Source: Deltaproteobacteria bacterium
GTDB taxonomy: Bacteria; Desulfobacterota_C; Deferrisomatia; Deferrisomatales; JACRMM01
NCBI GenBank assembly: GCA_016218905.1
Contig: JACRCS010000825.1
Coordinates: 1-11,323 of the forward strand
Direction of reading: 5' to 3'
DNA: 11,323 nucleotides
Shown: one piece after another, positions 110-11,031 of the stretch
How the letters are laid out: every line of letters starts with the position of its first letter
Position numbering within the stretch: position 1 is the stretch's first letter
Notes under the pieces: generated by a model
What the model saw: the letters and a program-made list of their open reading frames with translations, nothing else
What the model was told of the DNA's origin: nothing
The model's database searches: none
Position numbers and translations under genes: made by a program

Positions 110-114
110 AGGAG
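110..114 (+). promoter_or_regulatory. Ribosome binding site fixing the start at 123
   Basis: AGGAG at 110-114 sits 8 bases ahead of ATG 123. It supports translation starting there, upstream of the in-frame TGA at 171, rather than at the GTG at 201, which has no comparable Shine-Dalgarno sequence. Confidence 0.75.
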
Positions 115-122
115 AGCGAGTG

Positions 123-884
123 ATGGACCTCGAGTTCAAGCCGAACATCTTGGGTTTCGTCTGCAATTGGTGAGCGTACGGGTCTGCGGACCTGGCTGGC
201 GTGTCCAGACTACAATATACGACCGACATCAAGCTCATCCGCGTCATGTGCACCGGCAGGGTGGACCTGGGGTTCGTCCTGCGCGCCTTCTCGAACGGGA
301 AGGACGGCGTCTTCATCGGGGGGTGCCACCTCGGTGACTGCCACTACGTCACGGAAGGCAACTACCACGCGCTCCACATGGTGGAGCTCGCGAAGAAGCT
401 CCTCGGTTACGTCGGGGTGAACCCCGCGCGGCTGCGGATCGAGTGGATCTCCGCCGGCGAGGGGATCCGGTTCGCCGAGGTCATGAACGACTTCAGCAAG
501 CAGCTCCAGCAGGCAGGCCCGCTCGGCAAGAGCGAGGGCATCGACGCCGCCACGCTGAAGCTCAAGCTCGAGGCGCTCACCCGGATGATTCCCTACGTCC
601 GTCTCGTGGAGCGGGAGAGGCTGCGGGTGAAGTTCAAGACGGAGCAGGAGTACCGGGCGTTCTTCGACAGCGAAGAGGTCGACAAGGTCCTCCGCGAGCT
701 CCTGGCGGACAAGCTCGCCATGAGTCAGATCATGCTGCTCCTCGGCGAGAGGGAGTTCTCCCTGGAGGAGATCTCCGACAAGCTCCACCTGAGCCCCTCC
801 GAAGTGTCGAGGCACCTCGGCAGCTCGGCGCGGCACGGACTGGTCCGGTACGACCAGGGCCAGGAGCGGTTCGCGCTCGCGTGA
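123..884 (+). CDS. Selenocysteine-containing MvhD/BamF-like iron-sulfur subunit with C-terminal winged helix
   Basis: This is an electron-transfer subunit of the MvhD/FlpD/BamF family, which carries a [2Fe-2S] cluster and links HdrA-like flavoproteins to an electron donor. Seen: ATG 123 with a good ribosome binding site, then 16 codons ending CNW, an in-frame TGA (171-173) and AYGSADLAGVSRLQY. The family consensus is CNWC-S-Y-x-GAD, so the TGA stands exactly where homologues have Cys and is read as Sec17 of 253 residues. Other conserved candidate ligands are Cys43 (MCTGR) and Cys68/Cys73 (GCHLGDCHY). The MvhD domain spans about 5-135. Residues 185-253 resemble an ArsR-type winged helix (FSLEEISDKLHLSPSEVSRH). 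This is the first visible gene of the operon; an HdrA-like partner would be expected just upstream of the window. Known: archaeal VhuD and bacterial BamF include selenoproteins. If TGA is a true stop, only a truncated product from GTG 201 would be made, which I consider unlikely. Confidence 0.88.
182..210 (+). promoter_or_regulatory. Candidate bacterial SECIS hairpin
   Basis: Directly downstream of the UGA the message can fold: GTCT (182-185) pairs with AGAC (207-210), and GGAC (188-191) pairs with GTCC (203-206). GC at 186-187 is bulged and the 11-base loop (192-202) contains UGGCUGGC. The loop begins 18 nt after the UGA, within the spacing usual for bacterial SECIS elements, which lie inside the reading frame and recruit SelB. 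The stem is short and bulged, and no energy calculation was possible, so this is a candidate only. Confidence 0.45.
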
Positions 885-1558: not shown

Positions 1559-3259
1559 ATGAGGATCGATTCGCCCGAGCAACTGGAAGAGGTCCGCAAG
1601 GGGATCCTGGCGCAGAGGGATCCGGAGAAACCGTGCATCGCGATCTGTGGAGCGCCCAACTGCCACACGCTCGGCAAGGAGCGCCTCTTTCGCGCGGTCG
1701 AGGAAGAGATCGAGAAACGCTCCCTCCAGGCGAAGGTGGATGTGCGGAAGACCGGTTGCCTCGGCTTTTGCGAGAAGGGGCCCGTGGTCGTCGTCTACCC
1801 CCGGGAGCTCTGGTACGTGGGGGTGGCAGCCGAGGACGCCGCCGAGATCGTGAGTGAGACCGTCGAGAAGAAGCCCGTCGACCGGCTCCTCTTCGCCGAC
1901 CCGAAGACCGGTGCCAAGGCGCTGCGGCGCGAGGAGATCCCCTTCTACAACGGCCAGACCGAGTACCTCCTCGGCAAGAACGGCCGGCTGGACCCGAAGA
2001 GCATGGAGGATTACCTCGCCCTCGGCGGCTACGGCGCGCTCTCGAAGGCGCTCTTCCAGCTCAGTCCCGAGGGAGTGCTCGACGAGGTGAAGAAGGCCAA
2101 TCTCCGCGGCCGCGGGGGCGGCGGCTTCCCCGCCGGGTCGAAGTGGGAGACCACCCGCAACGCGCCCGGCCAGGTGAAGTACGTGATCGTGAACGGCCAC
2201 GAGGGCGAGCCCGGGGCGTTCATGGACCGGGCCCTCTTCACGGGCAACCCCCACGCCGTCCTCGAGGGGCTGATCATCGGCGCCTACGCCATCGGCGCCC
2301 ACCAGGGCTTCATCTACACGCGCCACGACAGCCCGATGCTCCTCGAGAACCTCAACCGGGCGCTGGATCAGGCGAGGGAGTACGGGTTCCTGGGCACGAA
2401 CATCCTCGGCTCCGGGTTCGACTTCGAGGTCGAGGTGCACTTCGACGTCGGGATCTTCGTCTCCGGCGAGTCGAGCGCCCTCATGCGCTCCATCGAGGGG
2501 AAGAACCCCGAGCCTCGGCCCAAGTACATCCGCACCTCGGTGAGCGGGATCTGGGACCGGCCGAGCAACCTCAACAACGTCGAGACCTGGGCCAACGTCC
2601 CGCTGATCATCAACAACGGCTCCGAGTGGTACTCGGCTATCGGGACGGAGCGGAGCAAGGGCGTGAAGCTCCTCTCCATGTCCGGCAGCATCGCGAACAT
2701 CGGCGTCGTGGAGGTGCCCTTCGGGACCCCGCTCCGAAAGATCGTCTACGAGATGGGCGGCGGCGTTCCCAACGGGAAGAAGCTGAAGGCCGTCCACTTC
2801 GGCGGGCCCATGGGGGGCTCCATCCCAGAGAGCCTCATCGACACCCCTCTCGACTTCGACGCGCTCTCGAAGCTCGGCGCTCCCATGGGTGCGGGCGCCA
2901 TGCTCGTCGTCGACGAAGACACCTGCATGGTCGACCTGACCCGGTTCTTCCTCGGCTTCCTGACGACCGAGTCCTGCGGGAAGTGCGTCCCCTGCCGGGA
3001 GGGCATCCGCCAGATGCTCAAGATCGTCACGCGGATCACCGAGGGAAGGGGCCGCGAAGGCGACCTCGAGGAACTGGAGAAGATCGCCTCCGTGTCGAAG
3101 GCGGCCTCACTCTGCTCCCTCGGGAGGACGGCTCCCGACCCGCTCCGGAGCGCGCTCCGGTACTTCCGGGAGGAGTTCGAGGCGCACATCAAGGAGAAGC
3201 GGTGCCCGGCCCAGGCGTGCAAGGCGCTGCGTCCGGAGGCCGGTGCCCAGGCCGCCTGA
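1559..3259 (+). CDS. NuoF-like FMN/iron-sulfur flavoprotein (BamH/HydB-type)
   Basis: A 566-residue flavoprotein of the NuoF/HndC/HydB/BamH family, which passes electrons between a nucleotide (or other two-electron donor), FMN and iron-sulfur clusters. Domains: a thioredoxin-like [2Fe-2S] domain at about 25-105 with Cys30, Cys35, Cys67 and Cys71; the FMN-binding loop GRGGGGFPAGSKW at 184-196; an SLBB-like segment at about 365-450; and the N3-type [4Fe-4S] site Cys473, Cys476, Cys479 and Cys519. It ends soon after (KRCPAQACK), without the C-terminal 2[4Fe-4S] ferredoxin present in many HydB proteins. Two signature motifs deviate: NGHEGEPGAFMDR (212-224), where NADEG(E/D)PG is usual, and GESSAL (303-308), where GEETAL is usual. 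Both lie in the FMN/nucleotide pocket, so donor specificity may differ from NADH. It starts 9 bases after the NuoE-like stop, with GGGA as the ribosome binding site. Confidence 0.9.
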   Translation: MRIDSPEQLEEVRKGILAQRDPEKPCIAICGAPNCHTLGKERLFRAVEEEIEKRSLQAKVDVRKTGCLGFCEKGPVVVVYPRELWYVGVAAEDAAEIVSETVEKKPVDRLLFADPKTGAKALRREEIPFYNGQTEYLLGKNGRLDPKSMEDYLALGGYGALSKALFQLSPEGVLDEVKKANLRGRGGGGFPAGSKWETTRNAPGQVKYVIVNGHEGEPGAFMDRALFTGNPHAVLEGLIIGAYAIGAHQGFIYTRHDSPMLLENLNRALDQAREYGFLGTNILGSGFDFEVEVHFDVGIFVSGESSALMRSIEGKNPEPRPKYIRTSVSGIWDRPSNLNNVETWANVPLIINNGSEWYSAIGTERSKGVKLLSMSGSIANIGVVEVPFGTPLRKIVYEMGGGVPNGKKLKAVHFGGPMGGSIPESLIDTPLDFDALSKLGAPMGAGAMLVVDEDTCMVDLTRFFLGFLTTESCGKCVPCREGIRQMLKIVTRITEGRGREGDLEELEKIASVSKAASLCSLGRTAPDPLRSALRYFREEFEAHIKEKRCPAQACKALRPEAGAQAA

Positions 3260-3320: not shown

Positions 3321-3914
3321 ATGACGGAAGTCGTACTGCAGATAGACGGGACGGAAGTGAAGGCGACCCAAGGGATGACCGTCCTGGAGGCGGCCAAGAG
3401 CGCGGGGATCTCCATCCCGACGCTCTGCCACGCCGATATCCTGGAACCCTACGGCGGCTGCCGGGTGTGCACGGTGGAGGTGGAGTCCCGCGGCAGGAAG
3501 AACCTGGTCGCGGCCTGCCTCTATCCCGTGGAGAAGAACCTGGCGGTCCGGACCCGTTCCGAGCAAATCGACGAGATCCGCAAGACGCTGGTGGAGATGC
3601 TCCTCGCCCACGCTCCGGACTCCCCCGAGCTGATGACCTTGGCCGAGGAGTACGGCGCCGATAGGGCGCGGTTCGAGCGGGAGGCTTCGTTCTGCGTCCT
3701 CTGCGGCCTCTGCGTGCGCTACTGCGCCGAGGTCAAGAAGAAGGACGCCCTCACCTTCGTCGACCGGGGAGCGAGGCGGGAGATCAGCTTCATCCCGGAG
3801 ATCGCCGCCAAGGAGTGCTGGAACTGCAAGGAGTGTTTTCCGCTCTGCCCCACCTCGGCCCTCCAGGCGGCGTTCGTCCTCACCCGAGGGCTCACCGGGG
3901 CGGATCGGGAGTAG
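3321..3914 (+). CDS. Short NuoG-like [2Fe-2S]/2x[4Fe-4S] ferredoxin subunit (BamI-type)
   Basis: A 197-residue electron-transfer protein corresponding to the N-terminal part of NuoG/HydA. Residues 1-80 are a plant-type [2Fe-2S] ferredoxin domain with Cys36, Cys47, Cys50 and Cys66. The two [4Fe-4S] motifs follow: Cys125, 128, 131, 135 (CVLCGLCVRYC) and Cys166, 169, 172, 176 (CWNCKECFPLC). The intervening region (about 93-115) keeps a His (LLAHAPDSPEL) but lacks the HxxxCxxC residues that bind the extra cluster in NuoG. No catalytic domain is present. An in-frame upstream start at 3243 overlaps the NuoF-like gene, but ATG 3321 has GGAGAGA 8 bases ahead and gives the family N-terminus. It probably collects electrons from the NuoF-like subunit for the HdrA/MvhD side of the complex. 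Last gene of the operon. Confidence 0.88.
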   Translation: MTEVVLQIDGTEVKATQGMTVLEAAKSAGISIPTLCHADILEPYGGCRVCTVEVESRGRKNLVAACLYPVEKNLAVRTRSEQIDEIRKTLVEMLLAHAPDSPELMTLAEEYGADRARFEREASFCVLCGLCVRYCAEVKKKDALTFVDRGARREISFIPEIAAKECWNCKECFPLCPTSALQAAFVLTRGLTGADRE

Positions 3915-4840: not shown

Positions 4841-4961
4841 CTAGTGTCCCGTTCAGGAAGTTCCTTCCTGCTATTCAGCCCCCGCGTTGGCCGAACGGCG
4901 CTGATTCGCCACCGTTCGTCCTGCTGGTTGCGATGCACGAACTAACCGCACGGGACACTAG
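4841..4961. mobile_element. 121-bp MITE with 12-bp terminal inverted repeats
   Basis: A perfect 12-bp inverted repeat bounds the element: CTAGTGTCCCGT at 4841-4852 and ACGGGACACTAG at 4950-4961. The outermost CTAG on each side is the likely target-site duplication, with termini GTGTCCCGT/ACGGGACAC; a TA duplication is also possible. CTAG/YTAR targets are typical of the IS5 group and TA targets of IS630. No transposase is encoded, so it would move in trans. Inside is a strong hairpin, CGAACGG (4892-4898) with CCGTTCG (4912-4918), and a small GGAAGTTCCTTCC palindrome near 4857-4869. The right end coincides with the stop codon of the minus-strand gene beside it. Confidence 0.78.
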
Positions 4962-5422
4962 AAGCAACCCAGCTGACACTGCCGAAACTTATACCTCCGG
5001 GCGTTGGCGGCGGCGACGACGGTCTTCGGCCTGATCGCGAGCTCGCTTGCGAGCGCGAAGAGGGCGGAGCAGGTGAGCCCCTCGCCCAGGTGAAGGTCCT
5101 CGACCCGGCGGGCGACCTCGTCGTCGAACGGCTCCGCCTCCTCGCCGATCGAGGAGGTCTTCCCGACCTTGAAGGCGCCCAGTTGGCAATCGCTCACGCG
5201 GATGCCGAGCCGGTCGACCATCACGCCGACGTCGAGGCGCGAGACGCCGAGGTCCTTCGCCACCCTCCAGGCGGACGGGCACGGAACGCAGCCGTCCTTG
5301 ACCGCCGCCCGGACCGCCTTCTCCAGCTCGGCCAGCGCTTCTTCTGAGAGGTTCCCCGGGTTCTCCGGCAGTTGGATCCTGCCGCGCTTCTTCTTGCGGT
5401 CCGCGTCGTTGAACTCACGCAT
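4958..5422 (-). CDS. Hypothetical protein with a duplicated HTH-like CQLG module
   Basis: A 154-residue soluble protein of unknown function. Residues 1-20 are charged and basic (ADRKKKRGR). Two related modules follow. Module 1 is at about 44-84, with Cys45, Cys48, a helix-turn-helix-like AWRVAKDLGVSRLDVGVMVD and the ending DCQLGAF. Module 2 is at about 113-154, with Cys118, LFALASELAIRPKTVVAAAN and the ending QCQLGCF. Cys48 aligns with Cys118 and Cys79 with Cys149, so the modules arose by duplication. The helix pattern suggests DNA binding and the paired cysteines suggest metal or redox sensing; both are inference. ATG 5422 is preferred over an in-frame start 15 codons upstream because GAGG lies 8 bases before it. 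The stop codon lies in the CTAG at the MITE border; the reconstructed empty site still reads TTC TAG, so the protein is probably intact. It is divergent from the PBP1B/tungsten-enzyme pair. Confidence 0.75.
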   Translation of the reverse strand: MREFNDADRKKKRGRIQLPENPGNLSEEALAELEKAVRAAVKDGCVPCPSAWRVAKDLGVSRLDVGVMVDRLGIRVSDCQLGAFKVGKTSSIGEEAEPFDDEVARRVEDLHLGEGLTCSALFALASELAIRPKTVVAAANARRYKFRQCQLGCF

Positions 5423-5457
5423 GTGGCTATCCTCAGGTGAGTGGTTTCGAGCCGTCC

Positions 5458-5463
5458 ATTCTA
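5458..5463 (-). promoter_or_regulatory. Possible -10 element of the minus-strand gene
   Basis: Read on the minus strand this is TAGAAT, a good sigma-70-type -10 match. It would place a transcript start near 5451, about 29 bases ahead of ATG 5422. No convincing -35 hexamer is seen at 17 bp, which fits a promoter needing an activator. Confidence 0.35.
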
Positions 5464-5490
5464 CCATCCCACGCCCTCCGCCCGAGAGCC

Positions 5491-5828: not shown

Positions 5829-8198
5829 ATGACATCCCCTCTCTTCGCCCTGGCGAGGCTGGCGCGGGCGGTCGTCGCCACGCGTCCGCGCGTCTTCGCG
5901 GTCGCCCTCGCCGCGGGGCTGCTCGCCGCCTCCTGGTGGGCGACCTCGCGGATGGACCGGCGCATTCGCGCCGAGTTCGAGGCCTCGGCCGTGGACGCGC
6001 CTTCCGTCGTGTACGCCGAACCGGTTCGCCTCCAACCCGGGCTCCCGCTGAGCCCCGAGGAGCTGGAGCAAGCGCTCCGCGACCTCGAATACACCGCCGC
6101 GCCGGGAGCTCCCGAGCCCGGGAGCTACGAGCGCCGGGGGACGAGCTTCGAAATCTACCTGCGGGCCCTCCAGACGCCCGAACGCCACCGGCCTCCACAG
6201 AGGGTGAAGCTCCGGTTCCGGGACGGCGGCAGCGTTATCGGCGAGCTCAGCGACGGCTACGGCGCTGAGCTGGCGAGCGTCGAGACCGAGGCCCCCCGCG
6301 TCGGCATCTTCTACGGCGCCAGGCGAGTGGCGCGCAACCCCGTGCGCCTCGCCGACGTTCCCCAGGTGCTTCGAGACGCGGTGCTCGTCGTCGAGGACCG
6401 CCGCTTCTACGAACACCACGGCATCGACCCGCGGGGCGTCCTGCGGGCCCTCACCGCGGACGTGAAGGCCGGCGAGGCGGTCCAGGGCGGGAGCTCGATC
6501 TCACAGCAGCTCGTCAAGAACCTCTTCCTCTCGCGGGAGCGGACGCTCTACCGGAAGGTCCTGGAGGCGGGCTACGCGCTGCGCTTGGACTGGCTCTACC
6601 CCAAGGACCGCATCCTCGAGGTGTACCTGAACCAGATCTTCCTGGGGGCCGACCGGAGCCTCCAGATCTGCGGAGTGGCGGAGGCGGCCCGCCACTACTT
6701 CGACGTCGACGTGCGCCGCGTCACGCTTGCCCAGGCCGCGCTGCTGGCGGGACTGATCCGGGGGCCGGGGAAGTACGACCCCTTCCGGAAGCCCGAGGCC
6801 GCCGTGGGCCGCCGCGGCGCGGTGCTGGACCTGTTGCTCGCCGCCGGCCGCATCACGCCGGAGGAGCGGGACGAGGCCGGCCGGGCGCCCTTGGACCTCA
6901 ACCCCGGCCGGCGCGCCTCCGCGCCCGTGGCCTCGGCCTACGTGGACGCCTTGGAGGATCAGTTCGCCAGGGCGTACCGGTCGCTGCCGCTGGAGCGGGC
7001 GGGGCTGCGGATCTACGCGCCGCTCGACCTCGTCGCCCAAAACCGGGTCCAGAGCGCGCTCGACGACGGACTTGGCGACATCGAGCGGCGGCGGGGCTAC
7101 GGGAAGGGCGCGCTGCAGGGAGCCGTCATCGTGCTCGATCCTCGCAGCGGCGCCGTGCGTGCCCTCGTCGGAGGCCGGGGCGGCGTACCGAACACCTTCA
7201 ACCGGGCGGTGCAGGCCAAGCGCCAGCCCGGAAGTCTCATGAAGCCCTTCGTCTACGCGGCGGCCCTCGCCTCGGGCCGGTTCACGGCGGCGTCGCTCCT
7301 CCTTGACGAACCCATCGAGCTGCCGGGCAGGGACCGGCCCTGGAAGCCCAGGAACTCGGATGGCCGGTTTCGCGGACCGGTGACGCTGCGCAAGTCCCTC
7401 CAGAACTCCCTCAACGTGCCCTCCGTACGCCTCTTCCAGGAGGTCGGCCCGCGCACGGCCATCGAGGTGTGTCGCCGGGCGGGCATCTCGTCGCCCCTCG
7501 GCTTCGACTACTCCATCGTCCTCGGGACCTCGGAGGTGACGGCCCTGGAGATCGCCGGAGCCTTCGCCTCCTTCGCGGCCGGCGGCGAGGCCTTCCCTCC
7601 CCGCTTCGCTTCCCGCGTGCTCGATGCGGCGGGAGCCCCCGTCCCCGATCCGATCGGCGGCCCGGTGCGAGTCGTGCCGCCGACCGTCGCCTTCCTCATC
7701 AACGACATGCGGAGGGGGGCGTGCCGCCACGGCACGGCCTACGCGGTGCACAATCTCGCCTGGAAGTACCCGTTGGCCGGCAAGACCGGCACCTCGGACG
7801 GCGGCCGCGACGCCTGGTTCATCGGCTACACCCCGAACCTCCTCGTCCTCGTCTGGCTGGGACCCGATACCGCCGGAGACATCCACCTCATGGCCGGAGA
7901 CGATGCGATGCCGGTATGGCAGAAAGTGGTGGAGAGGATGCCCGACTGCCTGGAAGCCCCCGAACCGGTGCCTCCTGCCGGCCTGGTGAAGGTGGCCGTC
8001 GATACCCGGACCGGACTCCTGGCCGGGCGGGCGTGCGGCGGCGGCGTGGAGGAGTGGTTCCTGGAGGGCACCGAGCCCAAGATCCCCTGTACGCACGGGA
8101 GACTTCCCGCGTCGCCGGTCCGCGCCCCTTCTCCTGCCGAGGAGGAACGCGCGCAGAGGCCGCGGGTGAGGCCGGGCGCGCCGGGTAGTCCCGCATGA
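5829..8198 (+). CDS. mrcB: Penicillin-binding protein 1B-type bifunctional murein synthase
   Basis: A class A PBP of 789 residues that polymerises lipid II and cross-links peptidoglycan, anchored in the inner membrane and facing the periplasm. Domains: one transmembrane helix at about 21-37 after a short cytoplasmic tail; a UB2H domain at about 58-155 (VVYAEPV, YERRGTSFEIYLR), the mark of PBP1B, which in E. coli binds the activator LpoB; GT51 transglycosylase with EDRRFYEHHG at 189-198 (catalytic Glu189), QGGSSISQQLVKN at 219-231 and KDRILEVYLNQIFLG at 259-273; transpeptidase with SLMK at 469-472 (nucleophile Ser469), SLN at 527-529 and KTGT at 652-655. All catalytic motifs are intact and length is normal. 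The Pro/Arg-rich tail (760-789) looks disordered. The start is weakly supported (GGGCGG only). Its TGA overlaps the ATG of the tungsten enzyme, an unusual partner for a wall synthase. Confidence 0.95.
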   Translation: MTSPLFALARLARAVVATRPRVFAVALAAGLLAASWWATSRMDRRIRAEFEASAVDAPSVVYAEPVRLQPGLPLSPEELEQALRDLEYTAAPGAPEPGSYERRGTSFEIYLRALQTPERHRPPQRVKLRFRDGGSVIGELSDGYGAELASVETEAPRVGIFYGARRVARNPVRLADVPQVLRDAVLVVEDRRFYEHHGIDPRGVLRALTADVKAGEAVQGGSSISQQLVKNLFLSRERTLYRKVLEAGYALRLDWLYPKDRILEVYLNQIFLGADRSLQICGVAEAARHYFDVDVRRVTLAQAALLAGLIRGPGKYDPFRKPEAAVGRRGAVLDLLLAAGRITPEERDEAGRAPLDLNPGRRASAPVASAYVDALEDQFARAYRSLPLERAGLRIYAPLDLVAQNRVQSALDDGLGDIERRRGYGKGALQGAVIVLDPRSGAVRALVGGRGGVPNTFNRAVQAKRQPGSLMKPFVYAAALASGRFTAASLLLDEPIELPGRDRPWKPRNSDGRFRGPVTLRKSLQNSLNVPSVRLFQEVGPRTAIEVCRRAGISSPLGFDYSIVLGTSEVTALEIAGAFASFAAGGEAFPPRFASRVLDAAGAPVPDPIGGPVRVVPPTVAFLINDMRRGACRHGTAYAVHNLAWKYPLAGKTGTSDGGRDAWFIGYTPNLLVLVWLGPDTAGDIHLMAGDDAMPVWQKVVERMPDCLEAPEPVPPAGLVKVAVDTRTGLLAGRACGGGVEEWFLEGTEPKIPCTHGRLPASPVRAPSPAEEERAQRPRVRPGAPGSPA

Positions 8199-10693
8199 GC
8201 GACTGCCCTTCGCTCTCGTTCGTGCCGGAGCTCTGCTCGGGCTGCCTCCGGTGCATGACGACGTGCGCCACCTTCCACACCGGCGCGACCGGTCTTTCCC
8301 GTTCCCGGCTGCGCATCTCGCGGCACGAGGGGCATGCCCTCACGGATATCCACGAGGAAGACGACCTCGTCTTCGGGCTCGAGAGCTGCCGCCACTGCGC
8401 GCGCCCCTCGTGCCTGGAGGCGTGTCCCTCCGGCGCCATCATGAAGGAACGCGAAGCCGGCGTCGTCCGGATCTCGGACGAGAAGTGCACGCGATGCGGC
8501 GACTGCGTCCGCGCGTGCGCCTTCGGGGCGATGCTCCAGGACCCGCGCGACGGCCGGGTCGTCAAGTGCGAGCTCTGCTCCGGGCAGCCGGAGTGCGTGA
8601 AGTCGTGCCCGACGGGAGCGCTCCGCTTCGGGAAGGGGGGCGGATCCCCGGGCGCGGAGGAAACCCAAGGCCGCCCGGCCGGACATCTAACCGGAATCCC
8701 CGGCGGCTACGCCGGTCGCGCCCTCCTCGTCGATCTCACCGCGCACTCCTCCACCGTGTTGCCCATCGACGAGTTCTGGCGGGAGTACGACATCGACCCG
8801 AGGCTCTGGCTCGGCGGCGACGGCTTCATCACCAAGGTGCTCTGGAAGGACTTCCAGGGGCCGGTCGACCCCCTGGGCCCGGAGAACGAGATCGTCATCG
8901 CCACCGGCCCCTGGACGGCCACGGCGGCCCCCCAGGCGGGCCGGGCCATGCTCGGCTGCCTCAGCCCCGAGACGGGCGGCTTCGGGTCCGGGTCCTTCGG
9001 GTGGTTCTTCCCTGCGGCGCTGAAGTACGCGGGGTTCGACGTCGTGATCCTCCGCGGCCGGTCTCCCCGGCCGGTCTACGTCTTCATCGACGACCAGGAC
9101 GTGAGCTTCCGGGACGCGTCCCACCTCTGGGGCAAGGAGACCGGCCCGAAGGTCCGGTCGGTCCGGGAGGAGCTCGGGGAGGCGAGGGAAGGGGAGATCC
9201 GCGTCCTCAGCACCTCGGTCGCGGGAGAGAACCTCGTCCGGTACGCTCCCCCGTGTGCGGACGGGACGTCCTGCCCCGGCCGGACGGGCGCGGGGGCGGT
9301 CATGGGCTCGAAGAACCTGAAGGCGCTCGCCGTCCGGGGGACCGGGGAGGTTCCGCTCTTCGACGCTCGGGGCCTCCTGGAGAGCTCCCGCCGGGCGGTC
9401 GAACGCTTCGCGCGCGAGGAGCCCTTCCTGAAGCTCTGGACCGACTGGGGCGCCAGCACGGCGCTGGCCACCACGGGCGCGTGGGCGCTCGACGGCGCGA
9501 TGCTCGCGCGGAACCGGGACGCGGCCGACGTGCCGCATCTGCGCAACGTCGGCTGCCTCAACTGCCACAACCCCTGTTACCACTGGCTCCAGGTCAAGGA
9601 AGGGAAGCGCTCGGGGCTCCGGCAGCTCGGCGGGCACATGGCCTTCCTGACCGCCGCCCTGAGAAACCTCGGGATCGAGGACTTCGGCGAGTGGATCTAC
9701 TTCGAGCGCCTGACCCAGGAGCTCGGCCTCGACCCCGCCTCCTTCTCCGTCGCCGTCGCCTGGGCCGTCGAGTGCTTCGAGAGGGGCTTCCTCACTCTGG
9801 AGGAGACGGACGGCGTGGCCCTACGCCGGGGCGATCCGGAGCAGGTGGCGCTCCTCGCCGGAAGGGTGGCGCGCCGGGAAGGGCGCCTGGGCGACCTCCT
9901 CGCCGACGGCGTGGCCGAGGCGCGGCGAAGGCTCGGGAAGGACGGGGCGCCTGAGGCCTCCTGCGTAAAGGGGAAGCCGTCGCTCCTCAAGGATTCCAAC
10001 CCGCAGGCCCTCATCTGGGCCTTCGGGGCGCTGACCAGCCCGAGAGGGGGAGACTGGCTCCGGCTCCACAACGTGTGGGAGCTCGCCTTCGCGCCCGAGG
10101 GCCGGGACCGGTATCCGCAGTTCCTCGGCGTGGACTGCGCCGAGGTGTATCGCGCGTCCATCGAGGTCCTCGACATGCCCGCCGAGCTGAAGGCGCGTAT
10201 CTTCGGAGACCCGCCGAAGGTCGACCTCGCGTGGGTCCGGAACACGGAGGGTAAAGCGCTCTTCTCGCTCTGGTCCGAGAACCTCGTCTGCCTCTTCAAC
10301 TGCCTCGCGGCGTGCATGTTCGGCTCCGCCGCCCAATACCTGATGGTCGGCTTCGGTCCCACGACCTACTCGGAGCTCCTGAACCGGATCACCGGCTGGG
10401 ACACGTCCGCCGGCGAGCTGCTGGAGGTGGGCGAGAGGGTCTTCACGCTCCAAAGGCTCTTCAACCACAGGCTCCTCGGGTGGGACGGCCGCAGCGACGC
10501 CTGGTCCGCCAGGGAAGGGTACGAGCCGGCCAAAGCCGGCCTCTTCCGCGGCCGTACGGTGCCCTGGAACGAGCTCCTCCGGGAGTACTACGAACTGCGC
10601 GGCTGGTCGCCCGACGGGCTGCCGACCGCCGAGCGGCTCGACGCCCTCGGGCTTCTCCAGCACGCGGAGGGGTTGCCCGGAATCGGGGGATGA
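8195..10693 (+). CDS. Fused four-cluster ferredoxin and tungsten aldehyde ferredoxin oxidoreductase-family enzyme (BamC-BamB-like)
   Basis: An 832-residue cytoplasmic redox enzyme made of two parts usually encoded by separate genes. Residues 10-145 are a DmsB/HycB-type ferredoxin with four Cys motifs: C14/17/20/24, C65/68/73/77, C98/101/104/108 and C125/128/134/138, enough for four [4Fe-4S] clusters. A Gly-rich linker (about 146-167) leads to an AOR-family domain (168-832) that binds tungsten bis-pterin. It shows GYAGRALLVDLT, the pterin segment around SPETGGFGSGSFGWFFPA, GRTGAGAVMGSKNLKALAVRG, the cluster motif C454LNC457HNPC461 and a probable fourth ligand C699 (ENLVCLFN). The domain size suits BamB, AOR and YdhV relatives. 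The BamB reading follows from the BamF-I-like genes in the same window; substrate is not determinable here. Translation is probably coupled to PBP1B through the ATGA overlap, since no good ribosome binding site is seen. Confidence 0.87.
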   Translation: MSDCPSLSFVPELCSGCLRCMTTCATFHTGATGLSRSRLRISRHEGHALTDIHEEDDLVFGLESCRHCARPSCLEACPSGAIMKEREAGVVRISDEKCTRCGDCVRACAFGAMLQDPRDGRVVKCELCSGQPECVKSCPTGALRFGKGGGSPGAEETQGRPAGHLTGIPGGYAGRALLVDLTAHSSTVLPIDEFWREYDIDPRLWLGGDGFITKVLWKDFQGPVDPLGPENEIVIATGPWTATAAPQAGRAMLGCLSPETGGFGSGSFGWFFPAALKYAGFDVVILRGRSPRPVYVFIDDQDVSFRDASHLWGKETGPKVRSVREELGEAREGEIRVLSTSVAGENLVRYAPPCADGTSCPGRTGAGAVMGSKNLKALAVRGTGEVPLFDARGLLESSRRAVERFAREEPFLKLWTDWGASTALATTGAWALDGAMLARNRDAADVPHLRNVGCLNCHNPCYHWLQVKEGKRSGLRQLGGHMAFLTAALRNLGIEDFGEWIYFERLTQELGLDPASFSVAVAWAVECFERGFLTLEETDGVALRRGDPEQVALLAGRVARREGRLGDLLADGVAEARRRLGKDGAPEASCVKGKPSLLKDSNPQALIWAFGALTSPRGGDWLRLHNVWELAFAPEGRDRYPQFLGVDCAEVYRASIEVLDMPAELKARIFGDPPKVDLAWVRNTEGKALFSLWSENLVCLFNCLAACMFGSAAQYLMVGFGPTTYSELLNRITGWDTSAGELLEVGERVFTLQRLFNHRLLGWDGRSDAWSAREGYEPAKAGLFRGRTVPWNELLREYYELRGWSPDGLPTAERLDALGLLQHAEGLPGIGG

Positions 10694-11031
10694 ACCCGGG
10701 CGGAGCGCCGAGCCGGACGAAATTGGGCACTGGCAGGAGCAAGCGAGAGTGCTCGGCGGCCGGCCTCCTCGAGTCCTGGGTTCATGCGCTCCTCTTGCCG
10801 GCTATCAGCCGTCTCTGAATCCTTGGATATCCTTCAGAAACCCACCGGTTTCGGACGCCGCTTCGGAGAGCTAGAAGTCGATCCAGCCTTTCTGCAACCC
10901 GTTCCGGCCCGCCCTCTATTCAAACCGCAGTGATCCGACATGGGCGCCAGAGAGTCCCGGGCGGGCATCCAAAATCCCACCCATCTGGAAGGGCTGACGG
11001 GCGCGACGGCTGCGTCCGGACACAAGGCGCG
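10694..11031. other. Convergent intergenic region
   Basis: About 340 bases between two converging genes. There is a small stem CGGCT-ATC-AGCCG at 10799-10811 followed by TCTCT, and CTGAA/TTCAG arms near 10815-10837 around a GGATATCC palindrome. Either could weakly end the tungsten-enzyme transcript. I see no coding signal; the long antisense frame running through it is a shadow of the transporter gene. Confidence 0.4.

Follow-up and report, generated by a model that had tools for sequence, protein, structure and literature searches.

The gene at the start of the contig

The window, i.e., the entire stretch of 11,323 nucleotides analysed here, starts 122 bases upstream of an MvhD/FrhD-like gene, which is followed on the same strand by genes for three HoxE-, HoxF- and HoxU-like subunits. 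The features of this region are:

110..114, plus strand: AGGAG, Shine-Dalgarno-like as judged from the sequence, with a spacing of 8 bases to ATG 123
123..884, plus strand: predicted selenocysteine (Sec)-containing MvhD/FrhD-like (BamF-like) gene; 253 amino acids including Sec17; an FlpD domain is followed by a helix-turn-helix region at the C-terminus
171..173, plus strand: in-frame UGA, codon and residue 17, C-N-W-U, almost certainly read as selenocysteine
193..218, plus strand: candidate bacterial SECIS-type element with conserved 3' flank (alignment, codon use, covariance model)
201..203, plus strand: GTG, chosen as start by the plain ORF call but not conserved as a start codon
1097..1549, plus strand: HoxE/NuoE-like [2Fe-2S] subunit (BamI-like)
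1559..3259, plus strand: HoxF/NuoF-like subunit (BamH-like)
3321..3914, plus strand: HoxU-like Fe-S subunit (BamG-like); GTG 3243 is the start in the ORF list

Between ATG 123 and the terminal TGA at 882-884, the reading frame of the first gene comprises 253 residues and is interrupted by a single internal stop codon, the TGA at 171-173, which occupies the second Cys position of the FlpD/MvhD motif C-N-W-[C]. A plain ORF call instead starts at GTG 201 and yields 227 residues, so that 26 residues are lost; as the preliminary description of this DNA had pointed out, a well-placed Shine-Dalgarno sequence lies in front of ATG 123 and the upstream codons restore the N-terminus of the family. The read-through form matches the Pfam FlpD family (PF02662) over the complete profile (1-123 of 123) with 163.4 bits at a cut-off of 22.3, and the truncated form reaches 126.3 bits over profile positions 19-123 only. 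The C-terminal helix-turn-helix region was detected by PF01022 and PF09339 (scores of 25.8 and 25, cut-offs of 22) within residues 174-218 of the 227-amino-acid form. In the alignment with MvhD that the same description had proposed, the solved chain 5odc_D carries Cys opposite the TGA, and its statement that the TGA replaces a conserved Cys also agrees with 25 of 84 related copies, which have Cys at this position.

Conservation of the UGA codon in related genes

Conservation was analysed in the best 80 of at least 584 relatives, from a scan of GTDB genome contigs that yielded at least 589 stretches; none of this sample is more than 65% identical to the window protein. These loci gave 86 tblastn rows, 84 of which span the codon, with TGA in 59, TGC in 19 and TGT in six. 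Including ten further loci, we obtained 88 distinct contexts (63 TGA, 19 TGC, 6 TGT). A separate MvhD search of 395 genomes, representing the phylum of a Geomonas genome, returned matches in 99 genomes, 25 of them with two. Among these 124 matches, 111 contain exactly one in-frame TGA, the place of which was checked in ten fetched loci only, two contain TAA, and 11 have no stop, one of the latter not spanning the codon. TGA at codon 17 in the relatives is more than a chance occurrence. A scan of viral contigs revealed no relative.

The residues around the codon differ between the two types of copies. Cys14, Cys43, Cys68 and Cys73 are invariant in 88 rows, a comparison in which one of the 25 Cys rows, the second copy of L001, was left out for its length. 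At residue 18, all 64 TGA rows have Ala or Gly, whereas 24/25 Cys rows have Cys or Ser and the remaining one, the second copy of L001, has Ala; at residue 21, Ala or Ser occurs in 64/64 TGA rows and Gly in all 24 Cys rows kept. CNWCSY-x-GAD, given for homologues in the preliminary description, is the form of the Cys copies, whereas the TGA copies mostly read C-x-W-U-[A/G]-Y-x-[A/S]-A-D. The window protein has Ala18 and Ser21. Residues 18 and 21 are not a clean Sec/Cys marker, since the second copy of L001 deviates and the TGA-type residues Ala18 and Ala21 also occur in P0014, which is a Cys protein and shares 67% identity with the window protein.

Among the 120 protein matches listed, seven of 227-228 amino acids (75-77% identical) begin with VSRLQY or MSRLQY, i.e., at the same residue as the truncated form of the window protein. 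Such a common start would be expected if their genes shared the TGA. These seven, which do not belong to the 80 loci, were seen at the protein level, and several are nearly alike and hence not independent.

A SECIS-type hairpin downstream of the UGA

Downstream of the UGA, the bases CUGG (196-199) can pair with CCAG (205-208), topped by a tip pair 200-203 that encloses a loop of G201 and U202 and leaves U204 unpaired. In 60 distinct TGA rows including the window, the tip pair is AU in 48, CG in nine, GC in two and something else in one. The TGA rows contain 11 double changes, compared to a mean of 1.4 in shuffled alignments, none of which reached this number (0/500). The covariation lies in one pair, because all double changes map to 200-203; of the five pairs, three never vary and one departs in three rows. 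Pairs showing any double change, and likewise pair types, were no more numerous than in the shuffles (388 and 381 of 500). Mapped on a quick tree, 200-203 switched its pair type at least seven times, with one of these changes leading to an unpaired A-C. A scan of all column pairs in 150-260 that can pair in more than 75% of 64 rows ranked 200-203 first, with its 11 double changes, ahead of the structurally meaningless combination 159-165 (9 double changes, 78% paired). The hairpin is a property of the TGA copies, in which 98.7% of the cells are paired, compared to 44.0% in the Cys copies, where no double change was found in the hairpin.

Bases 196-218 are nearly frozen in the TGA copies, beyond what the protein would need. 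Ser is encoded by TCC in 63/63 TGA copies, and Arg by AGA or AGG in 61/63, in contrast to CGN in 25/25 Cys copies. Several of the codons involved are rare in the other main genes of the window, where AGA accounts for 3 of 232 Arg, CTA for 2 of 294 Leu, GCT for 10 of 292 Ala and TAT for 3 of 61 Tyr codons. The codons at 195-218 represent the most atypical synonymous choice among 2745 eight-codon stretches, which we ascribe to the hairpin.

For a covariance model (R1), we used 40 of the 63 TGA relatives, deliberately excluding L081, L084 and L090 and omitting 20 more for brevity. The window, which is not part of the model, matched at 193-218 with 44.5 bits and nowhere else up to an E-value of 10. 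The left-out TGA copies L081, L084, L090 and L092 scored 36.3-42.6 bits and the Cys copies of mvhD at most 11.4 bits; the match in L093 has no value as a test, because the model includes this site (as L083). Over 30 loci, R1 also detected a decayed copy in L027 with 22 bits and, in L039 and L043, four matches that lie outside mvhD and score 11.3-15.3 bits. The search for a SECIS element that the preliminary description had suggested succeeded with our own model at 193-218, but not with Rfam, where no family matched at its gathering score or at E-values up to 10. To our knowledge, Rfam holds no general bacterial SECIS family.

The hairpin has a 4-pair stem and a 5-nt loop, CGUGU, 26 nt after the UGA. 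These dimensions agree with a bacterial SECIS model that, in the part of the review consulted, specifies an upper stem of 4-16 pairs, an apical loop of 3-9 nt with a G in the first two loop positions, a distance of 16-37 nt from the UGA and a minimum free energy of at most −7.5 (PMC13188914). The minimum free energy fold of 174-216 (−13.8 kcal/mol) contains the hairpin 196-208 together with a second hairpin. Folding energies showed no excess stability over shuffled sequences (z from −0.23 to +0.44), and RNAalifold on the TGA alignment recovered two of the five pairs. An alternative pairing of 182-185 with 207-210 and of 188-191 with 203-206 was rejected once the relatives had been aligned, as its outer arm is not kept.

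Some loci harbor more than one copy of the gene. Two TGA-type mvhD copies lie within 10 kb of each other in a genome titled Dethiobacter alkaliphilus (L029:6348-7103 and 10001-10756), where the residues surrounding the TGA are identical and the two were counted as one context, and likewise in one titled Bacillota bacterium (L045:10001-10753 and 19902-20474). L068 combines a Cys copy at 7306-8061 with another, divergent MvhD-like frame that contains TGA, at 2090-2250 (C-N-Y-TGA-G-Y-S). At a locus titled Pelotomaculum sp. PtaB.Bin104, a decayed 5' copy of the TGA-type gene, with a broken frame and a worn hairpin (L027:4470-4690, the 22-bit match of R1), immediately precedes a Cys-type mvhD that is intact; Sec seems to be in the course of being replaced by Cys here.

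Selenocysteine machinery and reading of the UGA

The genome with the best matches to the window's MvhD (69%) and HoxF (73%) among the 395 genomes, G350, encodes selA and selB and contains a tRNA-Sec match of 71 bits. In a survey of 50 genomes, covering 50 of the 80 loci, selB exceeded the cut-off in 24/27 TGA genomes and 12/23 Cys genomes (Fisher p 0.005), where one of the 23 Cys genomes is that of L068 with its second, TGA-containing frame. The association is weak, because 12 of the 23 Cys genomes also carry selB. At an E-value of 1e-60, selB was found in 9/10 genomes. Three TGA genomes (G002, G018 and G082) lacked selB at the thresholds used, and all three have selA. For selA, 11/12 TGA genomes and 1/8 Cys genomes were positive, the latter being a biased control since these eight were drawn from the Cys genomes without selB over the cut-off. 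Matches above 70 bits to the tRNA-Sec family RF01852 occurred in 10/12 TGA and 2/8 Cys genomes; at its own cut-off, RF01852 was also positive in 5/14 control genomes. In one TGA genome, G007, no match to selA or selB exceeded the cut-off; its TGA copy (L007) lies on a 3.7 kb contig titled Bacteroidetes, which may be mis-binned.

Our comparative data indicate that the UGA at 171-173 is almost certainly read as selenocysteine in an MvhD/FrhD-type, BamF-like subunit, as the preliminary description had proposed. This reading is supported by the position of the TGA, its conservation (59/84 copies), the hairpin with compensatory changes in the TGA copies only, and the Sec machinery in G350. Gene finders cut the protein short because they take the UGA for a stop.

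Other readings of this codon explain less. An error in sequencing or assembly that turned TGC or TGT into TGA, or a pseudogene, could be argued from the single 11,323-base contig on which the TGA was seen and from P0014, a Cys protein whose neighbouring residues are otherwise of the TGA type. However, the window carries an intact TGA-type hairpin with its rare codons, the remaining frame is open, and the seven 227-228 amino acid relatives, albeit seen at the protein level, share the start residue of the truncated form, which makes such an error or decay very improbable. That the UGA is a true stop and translation begins at GTG 201 would fit a mechanical ORF call and the fact that GTG is a possible start codon, but 52 of the 63 TGA relatives have GTT and three have GTC at this codon, leaving GTG in eight; moreover, family sequence is kept in the codons before the TGA, and AGGAG stands in front of ATG 123. 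We regard a start at 201 as highly unlikely. A changed genetic code, in which UGA specifies Trp or another residue, would likewise keep the frame open past the TGA; yet the gene itself and three others (ending at 3259, 8198 and 10693) terminate in TGA, and the relatives alternate with Cys codons only, so that the chance of this reading is vanishingly small.

Neighbouring genes and a probable benzoyl-CoA reductase complex

The preliminary description had compared the gene to bamF of class II benzoyl-CoA reductase. The window protein shares with BamF the MvhD domain followed by a C-terminal helix-turn-helix region, and genes of the HoxE, HoxF and HoxU type, corresponding to BamG-I, adjoin it. 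HoxEFU constitutes an NADH module. Genes upstream of mvhD are out of sight, because the contig begins 122 bases before the gene. The first 110 bases of the window are GC-rich with inverted-repeat-like stretches, which may be why the assembly broke there.

The gene probably serves a benzoyl-CoA reductase, though this is less certain than the reading of the codon. The nearest relative, L091, encodes BamB, a BamD-like and a BamE-like (HdrA type) protein, an MvhD with TGA, HoxE, HoxF and HoxU, in this order. Its BamB scores 813 bits to the solved benzoyl-CoA reductase 4z3w and 244 bits to the next chain; in a Geomonas cluster (L093), whose mvhD also has the TGA, BamB reaches 1417 bits to 4z3w. The window shares the order MvhD-HoxE-HoxF-HoxU with L091, and its HoxE, HoxF and HoxU are 69-74% identical to those of that cluster. 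These likenesses speak against the less likely, though by no means negligible, alternative of a Sec-containing MvhD in another Hdr-HoxEFU complex. In favour of the latter, BamD- and BamE-like queries found no match in the window, its aldehyde oxidoreductase is not BamB-like (267 bits to 1aor, 168 to the BamB of 4z3w), and 99 of 395 genomes have an MvhD match, 25 of them two. The BamF-like label agrees with the domain architecture, the HoxEFU neighbours and the bam cluster of L091, but no BamD or BamE was found on the contig, whose only aldehyde oxidoreductase is not BamB-like.

Relation to known selenoproteins

The window gene is a new member of a known family of Sec-containing FrhD/MvhD proteins. 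In the excerpts consulted, 19 bacterial cases of Sec-containing FrhD were listed in 2006, with Syntrophobacter fumaroxidans and Geobacter metallireducens as deltaproteobacterial representatives of Sec FrhD/MvhD (PMC1794560), and four Sec-containing mvhD genes (mvhD1, 2, 3 and 5) are described in Desulfobacterium autotrophicum (PMC2702500). A review gives the Sec motif of the FrhD/MvhD family as CxxU and places archaeal SECIS elements mostly in the 3' UTR (PMC13188914), and another source counts VhuD among the selenoproteins of Sec-using archaea (PMC9312934). Because the family has been listed among the selenoproteins since 2006, our gain is one of certainty and detail. The window gene belongs to the same family as the deltaproteobacterial and D. 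autotrophicum proteins; it differs in coming from another organism and a contig without upstream Hdr genes, and in that a hairpin with a covarying tip pair could be derived here from 64 copies. The methanogen VhuD/MvhD chains 5odc_D and 7bkb_F share the FlpD domain and the CNWC motif with the window protein; with 129-141 amino acids they match up to about residue 141 and, in contrast to the window protein, lack its C-terminal region.

BamF of G. metallireducens (Gmet_2083) is annotated as 'hydrogenase, delta subunit; HTH' in the text consulted (PMC1924859), i.e., likewise a hydrogenase delta subunit with a helix-turn-helix region, and has HoxU- and HoxF-type partners, BamG and BamH. Unlike in the BamF system, no BamD or BamE was detected on the window contig, and its gene order is F-I-H-G, as in L091. 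In the parts of the literature consulted, BamF of Geotalea daltonii is predicted to bind selenite (PMC13119186), and Desulfococcus multivorans has as Sec proteins BamE and a separate mvhD (PMC5109826). The preliminary description had attributed the selenocysteine of class II benzoyl-CoA reductase to BamF, for which these texts offer partial documentation. A Sec-containing FrhD and BamF are each on record for G. metallireducens, but the two are not joined in the excerpts seen; nor was BamF itself named as a Sec protein in the consulted portions of the literature searched.

Proposed mechanism and implications

We propose that a ribosome reaching the UGA at 171 would be served by SelB with Sec-tRNA-Sec, held by the hairpin 196-208, and would thereby insert Sec at residue 17. 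We infer this insertion for the source organism, as well as the following electron route and the membership in a benzoyl-CoA reductase, from comparison with relatives. According to the part of the source consulted, MvhD passes electrons via its [2Fe-2S] cluster to the flavin of HdrA (PMC6019823). Correspondingly, the window protein would most likely connect two partners in electron transfer: the NADH-linked module formed by HoxE, HoxF and HoxU, whose genes follow downstream, and a BamE-type, HdrA-like flavoprotein, which would be encoded off the contig. The complex as a whole would be a benzoyl-CoA reductase of class II or a related complex of the Hdr type.

Sec17 could be a selenolate ligand of the [2Fe-2S] cluster in MvhD-type subunits, an idea we advance only tentatively and consider somewhat doubtful; it could also be a redox residue next to the cluster. 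The conserved Cys/Sec positions 14, 17, 43, 68 and 73 exceed by one the number required for a [2Fe-2S] cluster, which is compatible with either role of Sec17. If Sec17 is a ligand, a whole lineage of NADH-coupled Hdr/Bam complexes would operate on natural selenium-ligated Fe-S clusters, with switches to Cys. The alternation of Sec and Cys makes the role of selenium at residue 17 testable. The false start obscures that a redox complex, tied in relatives to anaerobic aromatic degradation, depends on selenium, and the TGA-only hairpin offers a simple rule for finding and correcting such genes.

Further features of the window

A 169-amino-acid ORF on the minus strand (4958-5467) had no Pfam match at an E-value of 0.01. 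At 4841-4863 and 4939-4961, 75 nt apart, lies a 23-nt inverted repeat with 83% complementarity and matching outer ends, which may be either a small mobile element or a terminator. The aldehyde ferredoxin oxidoreductase (AOR; 8195-10693, 832 amino acids) carries a fused N-terminal 4Fe-4S domain, which matches chains that accompany AOR as separate partners, such as 8c0z_C.
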